In this document: piece by piece, positions 27,278 to 53,989 of the stretch
Layout: each line of letters opens with the position of its first letter
How positions within the stretch are numbered: the first letter of the stretch is position 1
Origin: Candidatus Scalindua sp.
Lineage (GTDB): Bacteria; Planctomycetota; Brocadiia; Brocadiales; Scalinduaceae
Length of the DNA: 64,000 nt
Reading direction: 5' to 3'
Assembly (NCBI GenBank): GCA_021776915.1
Contig: JAIQZU010000033.1
Span: 62,001-126,000 of the forward strand
Notes under the pieces: model-generated
The model's database searches: none
What the model was told of the DNA's origin: nothing
What the model saw: the letters and a program-made list of their open reading frames with translations, nothing else
Made by a program: the position numbers and the translations under genes

Positions 27278-28951
27278 CTACTTTTCTTCTTTTGCAAGAC
27301 TTATATTAGTTTTCAATTTTTTTGTGTAGGGGTGATCATCGCCTAACCTCACCTGAATAACCGATAAGGCTTTTTCGAGATATTCAATTGCCTTGTCGTA
27401 TTCTCCATTTGCATGCAAGGCCGTTCCAAGGTTATTTCCATAAATAGCAACATTTGGATGATTTTCGCCAAAGGTCTTTAAATCTGACTGTAACGCCTTC
27501 TCAAGATATTCAATTGCCTTGTCGTATTCTCCCCTGGCGCTCCAGGCTACTCCAAGGTTGTTCCTGTAAGCAGCAATTTTCGGATGGTTTTCGCCAAAGG
27601 TCTTTAAATCAGATTTCAGCGCCTTCTCATAATATTCAATTGCCTTGTTGTACTCACCCTTTGCCCGCCAGGCTTCCCCCAGGTTGTTCCAACGGGTAGC
27701 AACTTTTGGATGGTCTTTGCCAAAGGTCTTTATGTCAGATTTCAGCGCCTTCTCATAGTACTCAATAGCCTTATCATATTCACCTTTTGCTTTCCATGCT
27801 GCTCCCAGGTTGTTTCGGTAAGTAGCGACATCCGGATGATCTTCACCGAAGGCATTTAAACCAGATTTTAATGCCTTCTCATAATACTCAATCGCCTTGT
27901 CGTATTTTCCTTTTGCGTTCCACGCGGCTCCCAGGTTGTTTCGGTAGGTAGCAACATTCGGATAGTCAGTAGTAAGGGGGCCGATCAGTTCTATAAACCA
28001 TTTCTGTCTCCTTGCCTCTTTCCACATGTCGTAAGGCAATATTTCGTCATTACGTATATGCCTCCATGCCTTTTCCCTTTCTACATTATCCGGATACTCT
28101 TCCAGATTGCTTCTTGCCAGCTTTTCATCACCTTTCAACCAATACCATAGTGCAAGCAATACTTTATCTACATCTCTTAAATCAACTATACGAAAAACCT
28201 CATTCGCCTCCGCTTCCTTCTTTAAGTATAGTAAGTTGACAGCTAAACTTAACCTTGCGGAATCAGTGTTTTCTATCTTCGCGTATTTTTCAGACAACCT
28301 GATCGCATCATCATGTTTGCCCAGTTGAAAGGCAAACCTTGACGCCAGATAATATACTTTACCTTTATTAAATGGGTTAAGGTGATTTTCGATCTTTTGA
28401 AGTATTGGTTCTGTTTCTTCATAAACCAGTTTTAATACCATAGTATCACCTTCTGACAGGTAAAAACCTGACCATGCAACATGCATTGTCAGCCAATACC
28501 GCCTGGGGTCATTGTCGCCAATTCTGGCAATGGCCTCATCGTAATATGACATTGCATCTGTATAATCTCCCAGAGAATGTTGAAGACTGCCAATGTTCTT
28601 GAGTGCAATAAAATTATCAGATGATTCTTTGCTATACCGTAAAGACTCCTGATAAGCATAGATGGCTTTGGTATATTCTCCCATTAATGTGAAAATACCG
28701 CCCTTTTCATTGTAACCCCAGCTATAAGCCTCATTAGTGCTGCAACTGTTAATGTATTCATCAATTAATGCCATAGCTTCTTTCAGTTTGCCGTGAGCTT
28801 TAAGTGAAACAATTGCGGATTCGGGGGTTTCCTTTGCTGCTGATACTTTTTGCTCAAATATCAGGATTAATAAAAAGAAGCCGGAGACTATCAACACACA
28901 AAGGATAATCTGGTTTAAGTTTTTCCGGATTGAGCGTAGACCTGTTTTCAT
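27278..28951 (-). CDS. Exported or membrane-anchored TPR protein
   Basis: The 557-residue protein begins with a basic segment and a hydrophobic stretch (about residues 15-31) that is a signal peptide or anchor ending near VSAAK. Residues 50-290 hold ordinary degenerate TPR units. Residues 330-545 hold five 42-residue kinesin-light-chain-type TPRs, each of the pattern VATYRNNLGAAWxAKGEYDK, then AIEYYEKALKS and a FGEDHP turn. Because the units are so alike, the DNA at about 27335-27964 is a 126-base tandem repeat. It is a protein-protein interaction scaffold of unknown partner. Confidence 0.85.
   Translation of the reverse strand: MKTGLRSIRKNLNQIILCVLIVSGFFLLILIFEQKVSAAKETPESAIVSLKAHGKLKEAMALIDEYINSCSTNEAYSWGYNEKGGIFTLMGEYTKAIYAYQESLRYSKESSDNFIALKNIGSLQHSLGDYTDAMSYYDEAIARIGDNDPRRYWLTMHVAWSGFYLSEGDTMVLKLVYEETEPILQKIENHLNPFNKGKVYYLASRFAFQLGKHDDAIRLSEKYAKIENTDSARLSLAVNLLYLKKEAEANEVFRIVDLRDVDKVLLALWYWLKGDEKLARSNLEEYPDNVEREKAWRHIRNDEILPYDMWKEARRQKWFIELIGPLTTDYPNVATYRNNLGAAWNAKGKYDKAIEYYEKALKSGLNAFGEDHPDVATYRNNLGAAWKAKGEYDKAIEYYEKALKSDIKTFGKDHPKVATRWNNLGEAWRAKGEYNKAIEYYEKALKSDLKTFGENHPKIAAYRNNLGVAWSARGEYDKAIEYLEKALQSDLKTFGENHPNVAIYGNNLGTALHANGEYDKAIEYLEKALSVIQVRLGDDHPYTKKLKTNISLAKEEK
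27335..27964. repeat. 126-bp tandem repeat inside the TPR gene
   Basis: About five consecutive 126-base units encode the 42-residue TPRs. Neighbouring units share long identical stretches such as cttctcataatattcaattg and gccttgtcgtattc (plus strand). This points to recent unit duplication or gene conversion, and copy number may vary between strains. Confidence 0.75.
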
Positions 28952-43260: not shown

Positions 43261-43792
43261 TTAAAAAAATAATGTCGAATTTATACGTAACGTATATGAT
43301 CAAGTAATAATTATTGACTTAATTGTAATATTACTACTTAGAATATCGGCAGGTTTATTCAAATATTTAACAGTATTTCAGCATATTCTGCTTGAAGTTG
43401 TTATTGAGATGATCGTATGGAGAATATTTAAGGACACAATAACAATGGAAAAAGCAGTAGTGATGTTTTTGTATTTACAGCTGAATCGTTCTCTGGCTGA
43501 TAAGATTCTGGAACATCACTGCAAAGCTTAGAAATGCAAAAACCCCACTACATCAGTAATTGTTGTTAAGATAATACTTGATGACTGAGCGGGATATGCT
43601 CCAGGCTTTTTCATCAGCCATGTTCTTTGAGATCTGCAGTATGAGTTGGTGAGATCATTTTTTTATCTGGCAGGATGTATGGCATTAACTGATGTTACAA
43701 TTGGAGTTTTTGCGAATGAAAAAGTTTTAAATTATATCTTTCTTTGATTCTCTTGATTTAAAGCCGATTTTCTTTACTCAAATCCATTTTAA
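43261..43792. other. Intergenic region with repeat C, copy 1
   Basis: No gene is supported. At 43425-43471 it holds a 47-base sequence repeated at 48166-48212 (44 of 47 bases alike). The rest shows nothing clear. Confidence 0.5.
43425..43471. repeat. Repeat C, copy 1
   Basis: This 47-base stretch starts tatttaaggacacaataaca and is nearly identical to 48166-48212 in the same orientation, with three mismatches. The two copies bracket the block of two GH130 genes and one GT4 gene. Confidence 0.8.
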
Positions 43793-45247
43793 TTATATTG
43801 ATTGCATTTCATGTACCAGTTCCTTTGTGTTCACAATGGCAATGCTGGATTTATAATCACTCATGGCATATGGAACGACCAATGAGTCATTATGCTGCAT
43901 GACGCCACAGGTATAGAGAGCATTGGGAACATATCCCTCTCTTTCTTCTTCGTTTGGGGCCAGGAAAGGTTCTTTCAAGCGGCCAATGACGTGAAATGGA
44001 TCTTTTAGATCAAGCAAGATCGCGCCTATGCAATACTGCCGCATAACTCCAACGCCGTGAGTCAAAAGAATCCATCCTTCAGGGGTCTCAACAGGAGACC
44101 CACAATTACCAATTTGAACCATTTCCCATGGTTTCGAAGGTTTATAAAGAAGTTCAGCTTTTCCCCAGAAGTTTATATTATCTGAAGTCATGATATAGAG
44201 GTTTTCATTATCTTGCCGTGATATCATCATGTACAGGCCTCCAATCTTTCGTGGGAAGAGAGCCATGCCCTTATTCTGTACCGCCGCTCCATTCAGGGTG
44301 ATAGATTCGAAGTTAATAAAATTTGGCGTCTTCAAAAGCTGTGGCATGAATTTGTTACCACTATAAGCCGTATAGGTGGCATAATACATCATACTGCCAT
44401 CTTCGTCAAAAAACTGTACAAACCGCGCATCCTCAATACCCTTTGACTCGGCATGAGAAAAAGGAAATAATACTCGTTCACTTATATGACTATTTGGATC
44501 ATAGTCCATTGCATAATTCGTTTCTGCCAGAGATATTATATCATCAAAGGCTTCTATGGTTCTGGAAGAGGCCAGGTTAATATCACATAATTCGTCAATA
44601 ACTTCTTTCAATCTAAATATGTCAAATTCCAAATCAAGTTTATGCATAACCAGGTCCGAAACATACTCGTCACACCCTATTTCCGTCAATTTCTTCCTGA
44701 AAATGATTTTGTTATATTTTTTATTTGGGGCATGTTTACCCGTACCAACGAATCGACTGACAGGATTGATAGTGACCTCATTATCTTTATCAATAATACC
44801 GGTTCTGAAGGCAATTGAGGAAATGTGACCTTCGCCTACAGCTCTAAAACTCATAATAAAATGCGTGGATCCCTCGGGAATATTGTTCTGATCATCATGT
44901 GGAACTATGGAAGGATTAAAAAAAGCAGCCGATTCTATGGAATACTCGTTCGAGAAAAAAGCTCCAAACAGCTGTTTGCGTTCTTCAGGGACCTGGATTT
45001 CGTTGTCCAGCGCCTTTGTTGCATTTTCATAGTTATGAAGCAATACCTGCTTGAACTTTTTATGCCGGTGCTGAAAGCCTTTCATGACAACTTCCAGCTG
45101 CTCATTTACCTGCTGATCTGTCAGGGTAAGGATTCTATTAAAAATCTGTTGCATCCGGTTTTTATCTCCCGGTATAAAGCTTTTGAGAATTACCCGGGTG
45201 GGATCAGGCGCTATACTGATCTTTGTTCTTTCAACTGCAATAGGCAT
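43793..45247 (-). CDS. GH130-family protein with N-terminal helical domain
   Basis: GH130 enzymes cleave mannosides, mostly by phosphorolysis giving alpha-mannose 1-phosphate. The first 110 residues are helical and absent from short GH130 proteins. The five-bladed propeller carries FIMSFRAVGEGHISS, GIEDARFVQFFDEDG with the family's catalytic Asp, YYATYTAYSG, LFPRKIGGLYMMISRQDNEN and LLTHGVGVMRQYCIG. The ATG at 45247 is chosen because aaggaga lies 7 bases upstream. The gene at 52532-53989 is a paralogue of the same layout. The exact mannoside is unknown. Confidence 0.88.
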   Translation of the reverse strand: MPIAVERTKISIAPDPTRVILKSFIPGDKNRMQQIFNRILTLTDQQVNEQLEVVMKGFQHRHKKFKQVLLHNYENATKALDNEIQVPEERKQLFGAFFSNEYSIESAAFFNPSIVPHDDQNNIPEGSTHFIMSFRAVGEGHISSIAFRTGIIDKDNEVTINPVSRFVGTGKHAPNKKYNKIIFRKKLTEIGCDEYVSDLVMHKLDLEFDIFRLKEVIDELCDINLASSRTIEAFDDIISLAETNYAMDYDPNSHISERVLFPFSHAESKGIEDARFVQFFDEDGSMMYYATYTAYSGNKFMPQLLKTPNFINFESITLNGAAVQNKGMALFPRKIGGLYMMISRQDNENLYIMTSDNINFWGKAELLYKPSKPWEMVQIGNCGSPVETPEGWILLTHGVGVMRQYCIGAILLDLKDPFHVIGRLKEPFLAPNEEEREGYVPNALYTCGVMQHNDSLVVPYAMSDYKSSIAIVNTKELVHEMQSI

Positions 45248-45462
45248 CTGTTCTCCTTGAATATTTATGTTGTCGATTCTGAGAATACGCAATCATATAA
45301 AGTCACCTTGTAAAATCAACTATTTTCTTAGATTGTAAAGTATATTATATACCCAAAAAATCATAAAATATTTTAAATATTTTCTCAGTAGTGTCAGGTT
45401 AGGTTTTTGCATGTAACACGTAGACCAATCCTTTAGGTTTGCTTTCGTACATTAAGCGCAAG

Positions 45463-45519
45463 GCTGCCCGCCTGCCCGCCCGGCAATCCGTTCGGACGGG
45501 TACCTATTCGGGCAGGAAC
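45463..45519. repeat. GC-rich REP-like sequence, longest example
   Basis: It is a dense arrangement of tgcccg and its complement cgggca, with gcctgcccgcccggc and ttcggacgggta and ttcgggcaggaac in order. It is imperfectly palindromic and lies in otherwise AT-rich spacer DNA. Confidence 0.6.
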
Positions 45520-45563
45520 TCACGCCATAGGCGAATCTGCCTCCGGCACGACCTCGCCCTACG

Positions 45564-45608
45564 TATCTTCCGACAGATATCACATAAATAACCTGATATC
45601 TGCGAATC
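45564..45608. repeat. Repeat A, copy 1
   Basis: This 45-base sequence centred on cataaataacctg matches 48288-48332 in 39 of 45 positions, same orientation. In this copy it is followed 29 bases later by repeat B. Confidence 0.7.
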
Positions 45609-45637
45609 AATCTGTTATTGAGATAAGAGTTTTAAAT

Positions 45638-45678
45638 AAATACATTACATTAACAAACCGGGAAATATTAACGATAAT
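45638..45678. repeat. Repeat B, copy 1
   Basis: A 41-base sequence starting aaatacattacatt and ending taacgataat, matched by 52372-52412 in 34 of 41 positions, same orientation. Confidence 0.65.
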
Positions 45679-45867
45679 ATTGGTAAATGCAGAGAATTGA
45701 TGGAATGCTGATGTTTCAAATGTTTTCTGAAATGCATGCATTTCCAACATTCAAAAATATACCAGCATCAATAATGAGATTGTAGACTTTGTCGACGTGT
45801 CAAAGAGACCAGGGATATATTTCTGACATATCAAAAACTTTGATTAGCTGAAAAAAATCTTCTTAAG

Positions 45868-46980
45868 TTATAAAGAAGCCCCGGTCTCTGGGTCCTGGCC
45901 ATAGTTTTTGCATAATGTTGCTAATATATCCTCATGTGTTATCCCTATATTCATCACTGAATCACAACCTCCGTAATAAATTAGGATTGTGCCATTATCT
46001 TTACGAATAGCCCCGCAGGTAAATACCACATTTGGAACATGAACATAATCAGAATCCTTTACCCTGCAATCTGCCTTAGATGGGAATAAGATAGGTAAAT
46101 TAGAAACTTTTACTCTTGTAGGATCACCCAAATCATGCAATGCTACACTAAGTACATATGGATTACCATCCATAGTAGCACGGACACCATGAAATATACT
46201 GAGCCACCCATATTTGGTCTTTATTGGAGGCGCCCCAGGTCCTATCTTATCAGAAAGTGCACTTGGCCCTCCACCTGTCTTAATAATCGGTTTTTTCAGC
46301 AAATTCCATGAATTTAATTTCCAATCTTTCGTGAAACCTATCATTATCTGTGTATTTGCCCCTCCTATATTGCTTTCATTATTTAATCGAAATAATCCAA
46401 TATAACTATCATTTATCTTCTCAGGAAAGATCACCCCATTTCTCATATTTCTATTGAAGAGAGGACCATATCGAGTGAATGTTCTGAAGTCCTTTGTGGT
46501 TGCTAATGATACACGTACTCTGTCTTTTATACGGGCATGATATGCGCTGTAAGTAATAAGATAATTGTTGCCTAGTTTGATTATTCGTGGATCCTCAACT
46601 CCTCCTTTTTCATTCTCAATAATTATTTTTTCATTAACTCCTTCTGCAAAAGAATCTTTTTCAGAACATGGAAGCATAGCAGGATAAGATTCAACTTTCC
46701 ACCCGGTAAAACCATTCCTGCTTTTGGCTAAACCCAATATAGATACACCATTACGTAGATGGGATCGAAAAAGCATTAGTGTCTTACCATCATGTTCTAT
46801 AATCCCTGCATTATGCACAGTCTTTACCTGAAATTCAGGAGCAGTCCATACCTTATTGATGTCATGAGATGTGAGAATCGGGTTATCAGGAAACCTATAA
46901 ACCGGATTATTTAAATCTACAACTGCTTTTTTACCATTAGGTATATCAATCTCGCAGGTCACTAAATCATACTTTTTCAT
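45868..46980 (-). CDS. GH130-family glycoside phosphorylase, short form
   Basis: The 370-residue protein is a single GH130 propeller. It has PEFQVKTVHNAGIIEHDGK, FRSHLRNGVSILGLAKS, GGVEDPRIIKLGNNYLITYSAY with the catalytic Asp of VEDPR, GAPPIKTKYGWLSIFHGV and a late ILIYYGGCDSVMNIG. This layout is like known beta-mannoside or mannosylglucose phosphorylases, so release of mannose 1-phosphate is likely. It lies 9 bases after the GT4 gene and shares its transcript. Confidence 0.9.
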   Translation of the reverse strand: MKKYDLVTCEIDIPNGKKAVVDLNNPVYRFPDNPILTSHDINKVWTAPEFQVKTVHNAGIIEHDGKTLMLFRSHLRNGVSILGLAKSRNGFTGWKVESYPAMLPCSEKDSFAEGVNEKIIIENEKGGVEDPRIIKLGNNYLITYSAYHARIKDRVRVSLATTKDFRTFTRYGPLFNRNMRNGVIFPEKINDSYIGLFRLNNESNIGGANTQIMIGFTKDWKLNSWNLLKKPIIKTGGGPSALSDKIGPGAPPIKTKYGWLSIFHGVRATMDGNPYVLSVALHDLGDPTRVKVSNLPILFPSKADCRVKDSDYVHVPNVVFTCGAIRKDNGTILIYYGGCDSVMNIGITHEDILATLCKNYGQDPETGASL

Positions 46981-46989
46981 TTTTCTCTT

Positions 46990-48015
46990 CTATTGCTTTA
47001 AAGACAGTATCTTATTATAAACTTTTACATAATCCTCTACCATCTTTTCGACATCAAAATGTGTTTCAACCCTTTTTCTGCAATCCATCCTATTGATCTT
47101 GCCAATTTTCTTAATACACGCAACAGCTTCCTTAACATTATTTACGATAAATCCTGTTTTGTTATTTTCTATGACTTCTTTTATTGAACCAAGATCAAAA
47201 CCGATAACTGGAGTTCCGCACGCCATGGCCTCTGGCATGACCAATCCAAATCGTTCAGGTCTCATCACTGGATGAAGAAGCGCTAAAGCATTGCCTAATA
47301 GTTCATCTTTATCAGTAGGTCCAACAGGACCGATAAACTTAATTTGATCATCATCGATATATGGCTCAATCTTTTCTTTATAATAATTCTTCTCTTGTAT
47401 AATGCCTGCAATAATCAGCTTTTTATTTGATTTTTGTGCAATTTTTATTGCTTCATATGTCCCTTTCTCATAACATATCCTCCCGAGGAACACAAGATTA
47501 TCTCCACCGATAGGATTGTATCTGAACTCATCTACATTGATACCGTTGTGCACCGTAGCAACATAATTAAGTTTTTCATACCTGTCAGAATCACTAATAG
47601 AAACATAATGGGTGTTATCATTGTATTTCTCATATACCGGATAAATGTCAGGAGAGGAAAATCCATGTATAGTTGTCACGACTGGTGTTTTTACAAGTTT
47701 AGAATATGTCAATGCAGGAAAATCGAAATGATTGTGGATTATGTCAAATTCATCTGCTCTTTCAAACACTTCTGATATATGTAAGAGTTTCCACACATCG
47801 GCATTAATGCTTTTGTCTTCTTCATATCCTTTTGGACATATTGCATGATGTTTTGCTTTGGTTATACTATCCTTTGTTGCAAATAAGGTCACATCGTGCC
47901 CTCTCTTGACCAATCCTTCAGTTATATTGCTTGCAACAAGCTCCCAGGGTCCGTAATTTTTTGGCGGAGTTCTCCATGCAATCGGAGCAAGCATTGCAAT
48001 CTTTATTTTTTTCAT
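46990..48015 (-). CDS. GT4-family glycosyltransferase
   Basis: The 341-residue cytoplasmic retaining glycosyltransferase has a GT-B fold. The N-terminal domain has IAWRTPPKNYGPWELVASN and the G-rich acceptor loop. The C-terminal domain has LVFLGRICYEKGTYEAIKIA and RPERFGLVMPEAMACGTPVIG, the E-x7-E sugar-nucleotide motif. A short GT4 of this kind next to GH130 suggests mannosyl transfer, but the donor cannot be read from sequence. It is the first gene of a two-gene unit with the GH130 gene at 45868-46980. Confidence 0.88.
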   Translation of the reverse strand: MKKIKIAMLAPIAWRTPPKNYGPWELVASNITEGLVKRGHDVTLFATKDSITKAKHHAICPKGYEEDKSINADVWKLLHISEVFERADEFDIIHNHFDFPALTYSKLVKTPVVTTIHGFSSPDIYPVYEKYNDNTHYVSISDSDRYEKLNYVATVHNGINVDEFRYNPIGGDNLVFLGRICYEKGTYEAIKIAQKSNKKLIIAGIIQEKNYYKEKIEPYIDDDQIKFIGPVGPTDKDELLGNALALLHPVMRPERFGLVMPEAMACGTPVIGFDLGSIKEVIENNKTGFIVNNVKEAVACIKKIGKINRMDCRKRVETHFDVEKMVEDYVKVYNKILSLKQ

Positions 48016-48165
48016 TTAACAACACCTGAATTGAACATTTTATATTACCTTTTATTTGTGAGTTACCTGACGCTGGAATAGTGCTATGGGATAGTGCTAT
48101 GATATATTACATTAAGATTACTATCAGTTTTTGTCAATCCCAAACCATTTGTATGCTTTACATAT

Positions 48166-48212
48166 TATTTAAGGACACAATAACACTGGAAAAATCAGTA
48201 GTTATGTTTTTG
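48166..48212. repeat. Repeat C, copy 2
   Basis: It matches 43425-43471 in 44 of 47 bases, same orientation. Confidence 0.8.
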
Positions 48213-48287
48213 CACAATTCAGAATACAGTAAAATTGTGTGGTCATTATAACAGTGGATATTATAATATGGGGGAACTTTATGATAC

Positions 48288-48332
48288 TATCTTCGGAAAG
48301 ATATCTCATAAATAACCTGTTATTTGCAAATC
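48288..48332. repeat. Repeat A, copy 2
   Basis: It matches 45564-45608 in 39 of 45 bases. Its right end runs into the GH130 fragment. Confidence 0.7.
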
Positions 48333-48375
48333 GTCATTATGATATCGAAAAGATATTCCTTGAAAGTAATGAAAG
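48323..48375 (+). pseudogene. Fragment of a GH130 gene
   Basis: These 53 bases match 52703-52755 inside the GH130 gene at 52532-53989, with only two mismatches. In the GH130 frame they would encode FANRHYDIEKIFLESNE-like sequence, the end of the helical N-terminal domain. The fragment stops at the ATG (48369) that begins the SIS gene and is out of frame with it. Confidence 0.8.
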
Positions 48376-49403
48376 ATTATTTACTTATTAAAGACATGAT
48401 GGCAACAGTAGAATACATCAGGGCGCTCGATCCCGACAAGATCATCGCTTTCCTTCCCAGCATAAAAAAAGATAACCTATTTTTTACAGGCGAAGGATCT
48501 TCCCGGATCTTCCCTGCCCATAACGCCATCTATAACTTATTAAAGAGTCGTTCCGGGATAACAGCCATCACCGAAAGCGCAACGCAGGCGCTGGAATATG
48601 ATCTGAATGATTATACTGTAATCGCCGCCTCAAACTCCGGAAGGACAAAAGAAGTGGTCAGGTTACTGCAGCATCTCAAGGCCTTAAACCACAATAATAT
48701 AATAGCCCTGACGACCGATAACAGATCGCCCATCGCTACCCTGGCCGATGCCGCATATCAGCTATCCTGTGGGCCGGAAGGCGCCGTGTCGGCCACCAAA
48801 TCGGTGATGGAACAAGCGCTGTTTTATGATATTTTATTGAGAAAACTGACAGGTCAACCTCTGCCTGACCTTACCAGACTGGCTGATTTACTAAAGCGGG
48901 TCCTTGAAATAAAAATACCACCAGATATTATTGAACAAGCTGCCCGGGCAGAGACGCACTATTTTGCAGGCCGAAACAATGGCGTGGCAGAAGAACTGAC
49001 GCTCAAAGCCAATGAGATCACGAGAAAAAAATCAGGCTTTCTTGAAGGAACCTATGCTGTTCACGGTATAGAGGAAGTGATGACTAAGAATGATTTTCTC
49101 CTGATTATCGAACCTTTTCCTCAGGAAGAGGAAAAATTCAATGACGTATTCAGCAAAGTAATCGGCCTGCCGATCATAGCCATTGCCGGCAGAAAAACGT
49201 CTTTTACAACGATTAAGATTCCGGAAGATAACGATTTCAGTAGCTATTTACAACTGGCCGCCGGGTGGAATTTATTGCTTAACATCGGCCTGAAAAATAA
49301 AGTTGACATAGATCAGCCACAACGGGCAAGAAAAATTGGCAATGTATATACGGAAACAACAGATAATAAAAAATGCGGCAGTCATCGTCGCCCATCCGGA
49401 TGA
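48369..49403 (+). CDS. SIS-domain sugar-phosphate isomerase/deaminase
   Basis: A protein of about 344 residues with two SIS domains like AgaS, FrlB and the isomerase half of GlmS. The first has FFTGEGSSRIFPAHNA and VIAASNSGRTKEVVRLL, the sugar-phosphate-binding serines. GPEGAVSATKSVMEQAL and KSGFLEGTYAVHGIEEVM follow. It probably handles an amino-sugar phosphate. Codons before 48369 come from a GH130 fragment, so the ATG at 48369 (or 48396) is the likely start. It is richer in GC than the genes outside 48.37-52.31 kb. Its end overlaps the next gene by 62 bases. Confidence 0.82.
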   Translation: MKDYLLIKDMMATVEYIRALDPDKIIAFLPSIKKDNLFFTGEGSSRIFPAHNAIYNLLKSRSGITAITESATQALEYDLNDYTVIAASNSGRTKEVVRLLQHLKALNHNNIIALTTDNRSPIATLADAAYQLSCGPEGAVSATKSVMEQALFYDILLRKLTGQPLPDLTRLADLLKRVLEIKIPPDIIEQAARAETHYFAGRNNGVAEELTLKANEITRKKSGFLEGTYAVHGIEEVMTKNDFLLIIEPFPQEEEKFNDVFSKVIGLPIIAIAGRKTSFTTIKIPEDNDFSSYLQLAAGWNLLLNIGLKNKVDIDQPQRARKIGNVYTETTDNKKCGSHRRPSG

Positions 49404-49992
49404 TGAAACGCTCTGGGCAGGCGGCACAATTTTGATGAATCCTGCGTTTAAGTGGCAGATCATCACCCTTTGCCGCGGCGATGATCCTGATCGCGCTCCA
49501 AAATTTAATGAGGCGCTTAAAGTTTTACATGCTGAAGGGAAAATGGGAGGACTCGAAGATGGTCCAGAGCAAAAACCGCTGAAACCACAAGAAATCAAAA
49601 AGACTATTTTTTCGCTTTTACCTCACCTGGAATATGACATCATTATCACTCATAATCTGAAAGGTGAATATACCAGACACCGCAGACACGAAGAGATTGG
49701 GCGGGAGGTCCTCGGTCTCTGGAAAAAAAGGAAATTACTTGCCAGGGAATTATGGCTCTTTGCCTATGAAGATGGCGGCGGAGAATATCTGCCCCGTCCA
49801 AGGCCAGATGCTGATCTGGCGACAAAGTTACCAAAAAATATCTGGCAGCAGAAACTGCGGATCATTACAGGAATTTATGATTTTTCCGGTCATAGTTTTG
49901 AGGCCAGAACAACACCTGCCACAGAGGCTTTTTACCGTTTTACCGATCATGAAATTATTGAAAAACAAATTGACAGGAGGTTTTTGACATGA
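49342..49992 (+). CDS. PIG-L/LmbE-family N-deacetylase
   Basis: The 216-residue zinc hydrolase removes N-acetyl groups from glucosamine-type glycans (PIG-L, MshB, BshB family). It has AHPDDETLWAGG, with the metal ligands His and Asp, near residue 20, and THNLKGEYTRHRRHEEIG, holding the third ligand and catalytic histidine. The ATG at 49342 is preferred over a TTG two codons earlier. It overlaps the SIS gene by 62 bases and the GT4 gene by 4 bases (ATGA), so the three are tightly coupled. Confidence 0.85.
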   Translation: MYIRKQQIIKNAAVIVAHPDDETLWAGGTILMNPAFKWQIITLCRGDDPDRAPKFNEALKVLHAEGKMGGLEDGPEQKPLKPQEIKKTIFSLLPHLEYDIIITHNLKGEYTRHRRHEEIGREVLGLWKKRKLLARELWLFAYEDGGGEYLPRPRPDADLATKLPKNIWQQKLRIITGIYDFSGHSFEARTTPATEAFYRFTDHEIIEKQIDRRFLT

Positions 49993-51131
49993 AGGTATTA
50001 GTCTTATATGATTATCCGGCTTCACCGGGAGGCCTTGCGACTCAAGGGGAGTTATTATATCGCGGTCTTAAAGAGGCAGGCGTCGATGTCTATCCCGTCA
50101 ATTTTGAATCGGCACAGGAAAAGGAATGGTACTACCGCTGGTTTAAACCTGATATCGTCGTCGGCATCGGCTACTGGGGGCATACTCCCCACCTTGTACT
50201 TCATCCCCAGCAATACGGTGCGCAGGCAGTCCCCTGGCTGGTGGCAGATGGTTACATTGCCAATTATCAGGAAATTTTAAATGATCTGCCGCTCATCCTG
50301 GTCACCTCAAGCTGGGTCAAAGAGGTCTATATCCGTGACGGTATCAAGGGTGATAATATCGAAGTCTTGCCTGTCGGCTGCGATACCGATGCTTTTCGTC
50401 CCGTCGACAAAAGTGATCCCAAAGTAGCTGTGGTCCGCGAAGCGCTGGGGATCAAGTCCGATGAAACGATGATTTTGACCGTTGGCGGTGACGCCGCATC
50501 TAAAGGCGCTCACGAAGTAATGCAGGCGCTGGCAATCAATAATATCAAAGCCCCCCCCTGGCGATATGTCTGTAAAGTCTGGCCTCAGGAAAGAACGCAA
50601 CTGCAAAATCTGGCCGATTTGAAATTGGCAGAACAACTGGGTATCGATAAAAATATTATTTACACAATGAACAGGGTTTCTCGAAATTTTATGCCTTATT
50701 TAATAAATGCCTGCGATATCTACGCAGCCCCTTCACGGTTAGAAGGTTTTGGCATGCCCCAGATTGAGGCGGGCGCTTGCGCTAAACCGGTTATCGGCAT
50801 CAGAGCAATGGCCATGCTCGATACCCTGATCCACGGCAAAACGGCCTTGTTGGCAGAGGTTGCCCAGGAAATCCTGCTAAAAGAAACGACCCTCGGTGCG
50901 GAATCGGGTTATGCAGAAAGACACCGCTATGTTTTTGATAAACCAAGAACCGTTGATTATCGCGCCAGCGTGTATGACATTGCCAATTATCTGATGGATC
51001 TCATGGAGAAACCTGAGTTGCGTCTCAAGTTGGGTCAGGCCGCCCGTCAACATGTCGTCGAAAATTATGATTATCGAATAGTCACCAAACGCTTTGTAGA
51101 AATAATCAAAAACAGGTTTGGCCTCTCATAG
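49989..51131 (+). CDS. GT4-family glycosyltransferase in the cassette
   Basis: The 380-residue GT-B enzyme has an N-terminal acceptor domain with YDYPASPGGLATQGELLYRG. A C-terminal donor domain has ILTVGGDAASKGAHEVMQAL and RLEGFGMPQIEAGACAKPVIG, the E-x7-E motif. The ribosome site aggagg lies 6 bases before the ATG, which overlaps the deacetylase stop. A GT4 next to a PIG-L deacetylase recalls bacillithiol and mycothiol synthesis (BshA/BshB), where GlcNAc is transferred and then deacetylated. The acceptor is unknown. It has 58% GC in some 60-base stretches. Confidence 0.87.
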   Translation: MKVLVLYDYPASPGGLATQGELLYRGLKEAGVDVYPVNFESAQEKEWYYRWFKPDIVVGIGYWGHTPHLVLHPQQYGAQAVPWLVADGYIANYQEILNDLPLILVTSSWVKEVYIRDGIKGDNIEVLPVGCDTDAFRPVDKSDPKVAVVREALGIKSDETMILTVGGDAASKGAHEVMQALAINNIKAPPWRYVCKVWPQERTQLQNLADLKLAEQLGIDKNIIYTMNRVSRNFMPYLINACDIYAAPSRLEGFGMPQIEAGACAKPVIGIRAMAMLDTLIHGKTALLAEVAQEILLKETTLGAESGYAERHRYVFDKPRTVDYRASVYDIANYLMDLMEKPELRLKLGQAARQHVVENYDYRIVTKRFVEIIKNRFGLS

Positions 51132-51144
51132 AAAGGCAGTGAAG

Positions 51145-52314
51145 ATGACTACACAAATTGAAGCCGCTAAAAAAGCAGCCCTGGAAGTATTATTACATAA
51201 TGCCAGAGGCCCCTTTGATGATCTCCCCCGCACCGCCGGCTGGGGATATCCGGAACCTTATACCAGAGATCTGATGATCGCCGGTCTCGGCATTCTGGTC
51301 TCCTGTAATAAAAAGCTGATAGAGTCACTGGATAACGTTCTAAAAACCATGGTTAGAAATCAAAGTCCTTTAGGACATATCCCTTCGCTGGTCCATGATC
51401 CCGAAGACAGAGGCGCCAGTGATACGACACCCTTGTTTTTATTGACTGCCGCTATCTATCAAAAAGTTAGAGGCCAGAAGAAATACCTTCAAAAAGCGAT
51501 CAAAAAGGCGCTGACATGGATGGAGTATCAATCTCCAGCTAATAGAACGCTTGTCGCCCAGATGCCGACCACTGACTGGCGTGATGAGCAGTGGGTAATG
51601 GGGTTTGGTCTTTATGTAAACACGCTGGTCTATAGTTATCTCTCTCTTTTGAATCAGCAGGCAAAGGCTGACAATTTTAAAAAAAACATGAATCTGCCGG
51701 TTACCGATGAACACAGTAAGAACAAGCCAGATCTGGAAGGCTTTAGACTTAATGATAAACCCTATCTGGCGCTCTGGACATATAAGATATATAACAGTGA
51801 CCGCTTTGATCTTTTTGGCAACAGCCTGGCCATCCTGAGCGGAATTGTTTCAGAAGATCAGGCCGGAAAAATTATTAACTGGCTGGAAAAAGAGTGTAAG
51901 GCGATGCAGACAAGAAAGCAGTTAGCCATATTATTGCCACCAAATTTATTGCCCTATATCGAACCTCAAGATCCTGACTGGCGCAAGCGCTATGCTGATT
52001 TTAATAAGCCTGGTGAATACCACAATGGCGGTATCTGGCCCTTTATTTGCGGTTTCTATATTGCCGCTTTAGTCGCGGCTAAGAAAATTTCCCTTGCCGA
52101 AAAAAAACTTGCACTTTTGACAGAATTGGTCATACCGGCGCGTCAGAAAAAGGTGAGCCATGGTTTTAATGAATGGTTCAAAGCTCAGGATGGGACCCCG
52201 CAAGGGAATGACTGGCAAACCTGGTCTGCGTCCATGTATTTATATGCCGCAGAGTGTGTCGACCGGGAAAGAACCCCTTTTTTTGAAGAGATCCGTCAAG
52301 TGAAAGAGAAATAA
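51145..52314 (+). CDS. Alpha/alpha-barrel glycoside hydrolase, GH100-like
   Basis: A protein of about 389 residues with the repeated helix pattern of six-hairpin glycosidases. Conserved-looking stretches are GYPEPYTRDLMIAGLG, ASDTTPLFLLTAAIYQK, TTDWRDEQWVMGFGLYVN, EYHNGGIWPFICGFYIAAL and GNDWQTWSASMYLYAAE. These resemble neutral/alkaline invertases (GH100) and amylo-alpha-1,6-glucosidase-like enzymes. There is no signal peptide, so it acts in the cytoplasm. The ATG at 51145 follows aaaggcagtgaag and is 13 bases after the GT4 stop. The substrate is uncertain. Confidence 0.75.
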   Translation: MTTQIEAAKKAALEVLLHNARGPFDDLPRTAGWGYPEPYTRDLMIAGLGILVSCNKKLIESLDNVLKTMVRNQSPLGHIPSLVHDPEDRGASDTTPLFLLTAAIYQKVRGQKKYLQKAIKKALTWMEYQSPANRTLVAQMPTTDWRDEQWVMGFGLYVNTLVYSYLSLLNQQAKADNFKKNMNLPVTDEHSKNKPDLEGFRLNDKPYLALWTYKIYNSDRFDLFGNSLAILSGIVSEDQAGKIINWLEKECKAMQTRKQLAILLPPNLLPYIEPQDPDWRKRYADFNKPGEYHNGGIWPFICGFYIAALVAAKKISLAEKKLALLTELVIPARQKKVSHGFNEWFKAQDGTPQGNDWQTWSASMYLYAAECVDRERTPFFEEIRQVKEK

Positions 52315-52531: not shown

Positions 52532-53989
52532 ATGAAGTTGATAGTTACTAAAAAGCGCGAAACTTTTAAGTGTGATCCTACGCGAGTTATCGCGAGGTTT
52601 TACAAGCCAGGAAGCGAAGAGCGTGTCAGAAATATCTTTAAAAGAGTGTTGGGCCTTTCAAAAGAAAAATGTAAAACTATCCTGACCGACGTGCTGACTG
52701 ATTTTGCAAATCGTCATTATGATATCGAAAGGATATTCCTTGAAAGTTATGAAAAGATAAAGATGAGGCCCCCGGGGTATGACCAACTGTCGAAAGAACA
52801 GATGTTGTTATTAGGGGCATATTTCACAAATGAATATTCCATTGAATCTACCGCATTGTTTAATCCTTCGATGGTGCCTCATCCTGACCAAAGCAATCTT
52901 TCTCCCGGATCACAAAGATTCATCTTGAGCTTTCGGGCCGTCGGGGAAGGGCACATTTCTTCTATCGTATTCCGTAGCGGCGTCATAGATGCAAAAAACA
53001 ATTTGATAATGGATTCAGTAAGCCCTTATGCAGTAAGACCTTCTTTTGAATCATATCCTGAATATGACAGGCAAGCTGTTGTAATACAAATAAGAAAAAT
53101 TGTTGAAAAAATTGAAGAAGATATGGTAGGCATTAATCAAATTACATTTCCGGAAAAATCAGAAAATATTGCGGAAAAAATTAATAAAACTCAGATAATC
53201 GTAGATAATCTTGGGCGAGAAACGCGGGAAATGATGAAATGGTTGGCAAAGTCAGATTATGAAATAACTTTTGATGATAGTACCGCAATCTCTGAACGTG
53301 TGATTTTTCCGGTTGTCAGTCACGAAAAGAACGGTATCGAAGACGCCAGGTTTGTGCGTTTCACGGATGATAATGGAAATGTCAGATATTTTGCCACTTA
53401 TACGGCATATTGCGGGCATGGCATTTTACCAATATTACTGGAAACGAAGGATTTCCTGAAATTTAAAATGTGCGCATTGAACGGCAGAGGCGCTCTTAAC
53501 AAGGGTATGGCCTTGTTTCCAAGAAAGGTAAATGGCCGTTACATGATGATTTCCAGACAGGATGGAGAAAATATGTATACCATGCAATCGGACAATGTCC
53601 ATTCCTGGGATGAAAGGAAACAACTTGATTCCCCTCAATATAGCTGGGAGTTTTTTCAGATAGGAACTTGTGGTTCTCCAATTGAGACCGAAAAAGGCTG
53701 GCTGCTCTTGACACATGGTGTGGGCCCCATGAGGACATATTGCATTGGTATAGAATTATTGGATATAAATGATCCTGCGAAAGTTATCGCAAAGCTGGAA
53801 GAACCTTTGATCATCCCCCGTGAATCCGAACGTGAAGGATACGTCCCTAACGTTGTATATTCATGTGGAGGCATGTTACACGGTGAAACATTAGTTATTC
53901 CATATGGCGTATCCGATACATCATCCAGGATTGCAACGGTAGAGCTTGCGCCACTGTTTGAATGTCTACTGTCCTCAAAAATAAATTAA
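52532..53989 (+). CDS. GH130-family protein with N-terminal helical domain, paralogue 2
   Basis: This protein of about 485 residues is a close paralogue of the one at 43793-45247, with the same helical first 110 residues (FKCDPTRVIARFYKPG). The GH130 propeller has FILSFRAVGEGHISS, GIEDARFVRFTDDNG with the catalytic Asp, YFATYTAYCGHG, LFPRKVNGRYMMISRQDGEN and LLTHGVGPMRTYCIG. It lacks a signal peptide. The ATG at 52532 has aaaggagg 13 bases upstream; an upstream ATG at 52463 would add residues unlike the paralogue. A piece of this gene is copied at 48323-48375. Confidence 0.88.
   Translation: MKLIVTKKRETFKCDPTRVIARFYKPGSEERVRNIFKRVLGLSKEKCKTILTDVLTDFANRHYDIERIFLESYEKIKMRPPGYDQLSKEQMLLLGAYFTNEYSIESTALFNPSMVPHPDQSNLSPGSQRFILSFRAVGEGHISSIVFRSGVIDAKNNLIMDSVSPYAVRPSFESYPEYDRQAVVIQIRKIVEKIEEDMVGINQITFPEKSENIAEKINKTQIIVDNLGRETREMMKWLAKSDYEITFDDSTAISERVIFPVVSHEKNGIEDARFVRFTDDNGNVRYFATYTAYCGHGILPILLETKDFLKFKMCALNGRGALNKGMALFPRKVNGRYMMISRQDGENMYTMQSDNVHSWDERKQLDSPQYSWEFFQIGTCGSPIETEKGWLLLTHGVGPMRTYCIGIELLDINDPAKVIAKLEEPLIIPRESEREGYVPNVVYSCGGMLHGETLVIPYGVSDTSSRIATVELAPLFECLLSSKIN

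Follow-up and report, generated by a model that had tools for sequence, protein, structure and literature searches.

The window, a stretch of 64,000 nucleotides from the genome (G000) of a Candidatus Scalindua MAG, an anammox bacterium, contains the genes and features listed in Table 1. Four genes, from an SIS-domain gene to a GH100/GDE-like hydrolase, form a cassette in front of a resident gene, GH130_B, which is also found in G006, G008 and G010. G008, a close relative within the genus (locus L033), corresponds to Scalindua sp. OFTM180, and G010 is a further Scalindua MAG (locus L036); the G006 locus is L035 (C286). The G000, G008 and G010 lineages are about 88-94% identical at the locus. 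The G006 contig begins within the cassette; the left join can be read in the other three genomes. When L035 is compared with window positions 43741-48145, GH130_A and GH130_C are convergent in G006, whereas both lie on the minus strand in the window; this difference is a local inversion or rearrangement.

Table 1. Features at the Scalindua locus, in window coordinates
Feature	Position	Strand	Evidence or remark
GH130_A	43793-45292	-	
Empty-site-like fossil: ParB 3' end and GH130_B leader, without patch or cassette	45564-45678	+	
GH130_C	45868-46980	-	
GT4 (left of the cassette)	46990-48015	-	
Sequence whose counterpart in G008 and G010 separates the ParB-like gene from the divergent GH130_A gene	48208-48268	+	
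ParB-like gene relic, last 15 codons and stop	48268-48315	+	MGELYDTIFGKISHK and stop
Patch, out-of-frame copy from GH130_B	48323-48374	+	2 mismatches vs 52703-52754
SIS-domain sugar-phosphate isomerase/deaminase-like gene, first of the cassette	48369-49403	+	Pfam PF01380, 7e-14
PIG-L family de-N-acetylase	49348-49992	+	PF02585, 1e-8
GT4-type glycosyltransferase of the cassette	49989-51131	+	PF00534, 1e-19
GH100/GDE-like glycoside hydrolase, last of the cassette	51145-52314	+	PF12899, 2e-12
GH130_B, resident, right of the cassette	52532-53989	+	PF04041, 2.5e-31
Donor segment within GH130_B	52703-52754	+	encodes about FANRHYDIERIFLESYE
753-aa glycosyltransferase gene	after GH130_B		

The cassette differs from its surroundings in base composition, its GC content being mostly 42-51% and that of the flanks 31-44%. 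The PIG-L, GT4 and GH100-like genes recur in the same order in the distant planctomycetes G405, G311 and G133, at 35-71% identity, and in two of these three genomes SIS lies elsewhere. Because the order recurs while SIS is separate in two, the Scalindua set consists of that operon with SIS placed in front, and the four-gene cassette was apparently acquired by Scalindua. A Pfam search of the cassette genes returned SIS, PIG-L, GT4 and GH100-like domains only, and no integrase or transposase. SIS and PIG-L overlap at 49336-49403, and the SIS frame of G008 ends about 10 codons sooner.

Directly in front of SIS lies a short copy of GH130_B. Comparison of the window with itself gives 50 of 52 identical bases, ungapped, with an E value of 5e-17. 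The first-pass annotation had reported this copy, and it is real; over the 53 bases for which that annotation counted two mismatches, there are three (50/53 identical). Among 300 53-mers drawn at random from the window, identity to the best match elsewhere averaged 29/53 and reached at most 47/53. As had also been seen, the GH130 reading frame in the patch differs from that of SIS. The match does not end at the SIS start codon, as had been thought: it takes in the ATG (48369-48371) and the second codon, AAA (48372-48374). Since it lies inside a protein that aligns across relatives, the GH130 copy is the donor, and the intergenic copy is the derived one. A promoter scan of 48020-48420 found five sites against a mean of 3.6 in shuffled sequence, with no excess in or near the patch.

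A homologous patch occupies the same position in G008 and G010, each with substitutions of its own. This indicates that the patch predates the divergence of these lineages and is a genuine DNA scar passed on by descent. Its original right end is uncertain, since in G008 and G010 the match to GH130 runs only as far as ...GATATTCCT (GACATTACT in G010) and is followed by GCTTATTAT and then the ATG. Only in the window does the patch continue through TTGAAAGTAATGAAA.

On its left, the patch is bordered by the remains of a ParB-like gene, whose stop lies 7 bases away. This gene is intact in G010 (L036 12255-12875) and G008 (L033 13271-13894), encoding 206-207 aa with only a weak ParBc_2 match (E 0.04), and in both genomes its 3' end stands directly before the patch. 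In the window the gene has been deleted except for its end, and about 7 bases (TAATATG) are common to both ends of the deletion. The sequence in front of the relic is shared with the relatives as well: 48208-48268 is 91.8% identical to L033 14229-14169, and 48208-48270 is 95.2% identical to L036 13211-13149. A second short local copy occurs nearby, where 48166-48212, upstream of the minus-strand GT4 gene, matches 43425-43471, located 3' of GH130_A, at 94% over 47 bases.

The arrangement before the arrival of the cassette may be preserved in a fossil elsewhere in the window. There, 45564-45608 corresponds to the 3' end of the ParB-like gene in G010 (93%) and G008 (91%), 45635-45678 matches the GH130_B leaders of G008 (91%) and G006 (92%), and only about 26 bases separate the two. 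The match to the GH130 leader of the window genome itself is only 83%. The fossil is best read as a stray copy of the gap as it was before the cassette arrived. Neither patch nor cassette is present in it, and this would put the patch precisely where the cassette joins on the left. The first-pass annotation had taken the patch to mark that join, and the shift in base composition agrees. An intact, never-filled ParB-GH130_B gap was found in none of the genomes, so the empty site is represented by this one short copy. Beside the fossil, 45330-45560 contains repeat elements, partly G+C-rich, of which there are dozens of copies in the genome and the genus.

In G010 the end of the ParB-like gene is followed by the patch, by ATGAAAGATTATTTACTTATTAAAGACATGGTGG, the start of SIS, and then directly by the GH130_B leader; both broken ends share an ATGGCAA-AGT-like sequence. 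SIS homologues from Planctomycetota, Spirochaetes and Bacteroidales align, in nearly all cases, from query residue 2-6, which indicates that the sequence is that of SIS from about the fourth codon onwards. Given that the patch and the first SIS codons are retained, G010 once carried the cassette and later lost it. The GH130_B of G010 is closest to that of G006 (92.6%), whereas the gene for its 753-aa glycosyltransferase shares 96% identity with the G008 counterpart; the ancestry of G010 is mosaic over a few kb.

The beginning of SIS in Scalindua differs from that of its family. In 19 of 23 homologues (L110 and L056, the same gene, being counted once) the start lies 10 residues before a conserved F/Y, with ATG in 18 and GTG in one; the distance is 9 residues in three homologues and 7 in one. 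In Scalindua it is 3. The usual N-terminus reads M-N-x-x-E-x-[KR]-Y-x-K-F/Y. In G008 an in-frame stop occurs 10 codons upstream of the ATG with no ATG, GTG or TTG in between, so that this ATG is likely to be the start there; the window has an additional in-frame ATG at 48342, which also falls within the patch.

Two readings of this ATG can be made. Either ATG-AAA-GA came from GH130 (the donor in G010 reads TTATGAAAGA) and about ten native codons were lost, or the ATG is an internal codon of SIS and the patch was lengthened in the window genome only. The latter draws on the presence of GCTTATTAT in place of TTGAAAGT in G008 and G010, and if one extra residue is allowed in the alignment (Y-M-K-D-Y vs Y-x-K-F), the ATG would fall inside the native gene. 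Under both readings the 5' end of the Scalindua SIS is shortened, its native start gone. The suggestion in the first-pass annotation that the join lent SIS its start region thus stands in part: the 5' end has changed and the ATG lies in the patch, but ATG-AAA may come from GH130 or belong to an internal methionine of SIS. SIS is under purifying selection, with a dN/dS of 0.16 against G008, similar to its neighbours. It is possible, and we propose it tentatively, that SIS now takes its leader, its working start codon and the codon after it from an out-of-frame piece of GH130. A random intragenomic patch would then have replaced the native translation start of the first gene of an acquired operon, and purifying selection would have maintained it in more than one species.

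Several other explanations of the patch can be considered. Repeats can mislead assemblers, and the window comes from a MAG assembly. However, G008 has the same join and G010 both the patch and the SIS start, each with its own substitutions; these independent assemblies refute an artefact, to which we assign virtually no probability. Relatives whose uninterrupted SIS N-terminus already contained the patch would have spoken against the first-pass annotation, but the family at large has a different N-terminus, and G008 has the patch only because it shares the same event. The first-pass annotation had the cassette inserted beside or into a duplicate of the GH130 gene, of which the patch would be a decayed leftover, with an intact GH130 on the right and a piece of one on the left. 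The match, however, extends over only about 52 bases, and no further GH130 5' sequence was seen to the left of the patch. Since the end of the ParB-like gene adjoins it there, in G008 and G010 as well, the patch does not derive from a second GH130 gene; this origin is contradicted and very unlikely. The two copies also form 52-base direct repeats about 4.4 kb apart that flank the cassette, as would the att-like ends or the target duplication of a mobile element. Yet the right copy lies within GH130_B, about 390 bases past the last cassette gene, the cassette encodes neither integrase nor transposase, and the loss of the cassette in G010 used other points. Such an element is ruled out by where the right copy lies and by the genes that the cassette carries, and we regard it as extremely improbable.

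A more serious alternative, though still an unlikely one, is that the patch arose as a separate short substitution, earlier or later, that struck the SIS leader by chance through intragenomic single strand annealing at microhomologies, and that it was refreshed or lengthened in the window by conversion from GH130_B. The extension through TTGAAAGTAATGAAA in the window alone, against GCTTATTAT in G008 and G010, speaks for it. CAAAA, common to the patch and the donor of G010 where the others have CGAAA, would likewise fit an exchange between copies. On the other hand, in all three readable lineages the patch coincides exactly with the cassette edge, for which a single event at the join is simpler.

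Overall, we consider it reasonably likely that a foreign gene set entered the ParB-GH130_B gap with GH130_B filler at its left join and lost the SIS start in the process. The ancestor of these Scalindua lineages would have taken up SIS, PIG-L, GT4 and GH100-like genes between the ParB-like gene and GH130_B. Some 40-55 bases at the left join would have been copied from GH130_B, which in the empty site lay about 360 bases further downstream; short identities, resembling TGCAAATC on the left and TTATGAAAGA on the right, probably guided the copying. Candidate identities can be seen on the left between TGCGAATC of the fossil site and TGCAAATC of the patch, and on the right in ATGAAAGA, common to SIS and the GH130_B of G010, with the true ends of the patch uncertain on either side. 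Patch and cassette may have arrived in one event, by microhomology-guided illegitimate recombination, template switching or short single-strand integration. SIS would have lost its own first codons in the join and stayed functional, with translation now beginning at an ATG that lies within the patch or on its border. Ku was found in none of 17 genomes of the family by a search that did find it in one control genome. This disfavours classical bacterial NHEJ, and filler from Ku-dependent end joining was therefore rejected.

A comparable process is short-patch double illegitimate recombination (SPDIR), reportedly described by Harms et al. in 2016. In SPDIR, tens of bases are copied from elsewhere in the same genome, with microhomology joins on both sides. 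The Scalindua patch is likewise a short segment from the same genome; unlike SPDIR, it borders a larger acquired cassette, overlaps a start codon and stems from a natural, undated event. Templated insertions and microhomology-mediated template switching are reviewed for end joining in, for example, PMC12426944. There too the filler at a join derives from sequence close by, but Scalindua is a bacterial lineage in which no Ku was detected. In Acinetobacter, according to work cited in PMC8116780, illegitimate recombination integrates foreign DNA, which is also joined without long homology; the Scalindua join differs in its intragenomic filler and in showing no sign of transformation. Copying from nearby DNA under the guidance of microhomology, of the kind seen in templated insertions or SPDIR, best accounts for the patch.

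The locus thus offers a natural, readable case of how a chromosome can accommodate a foreign operon in the absence of long homology, with filler taken from next door, an original start lost, a new start in the filler and, in one relative, a later loss. It also places a planctomycete-type PIG-L, GT4 and GH100-like sugar operon, with SIS in front, in Scalindua. Its importance is modest, and general concepts are unchanged. A search for literature naming both Scalindua and GH130 returned a single paper, on actinobacteria. Elsewhere in the window, 27365-27967 contains internal repeats of 75-79% identity, offset by about 126 bases.
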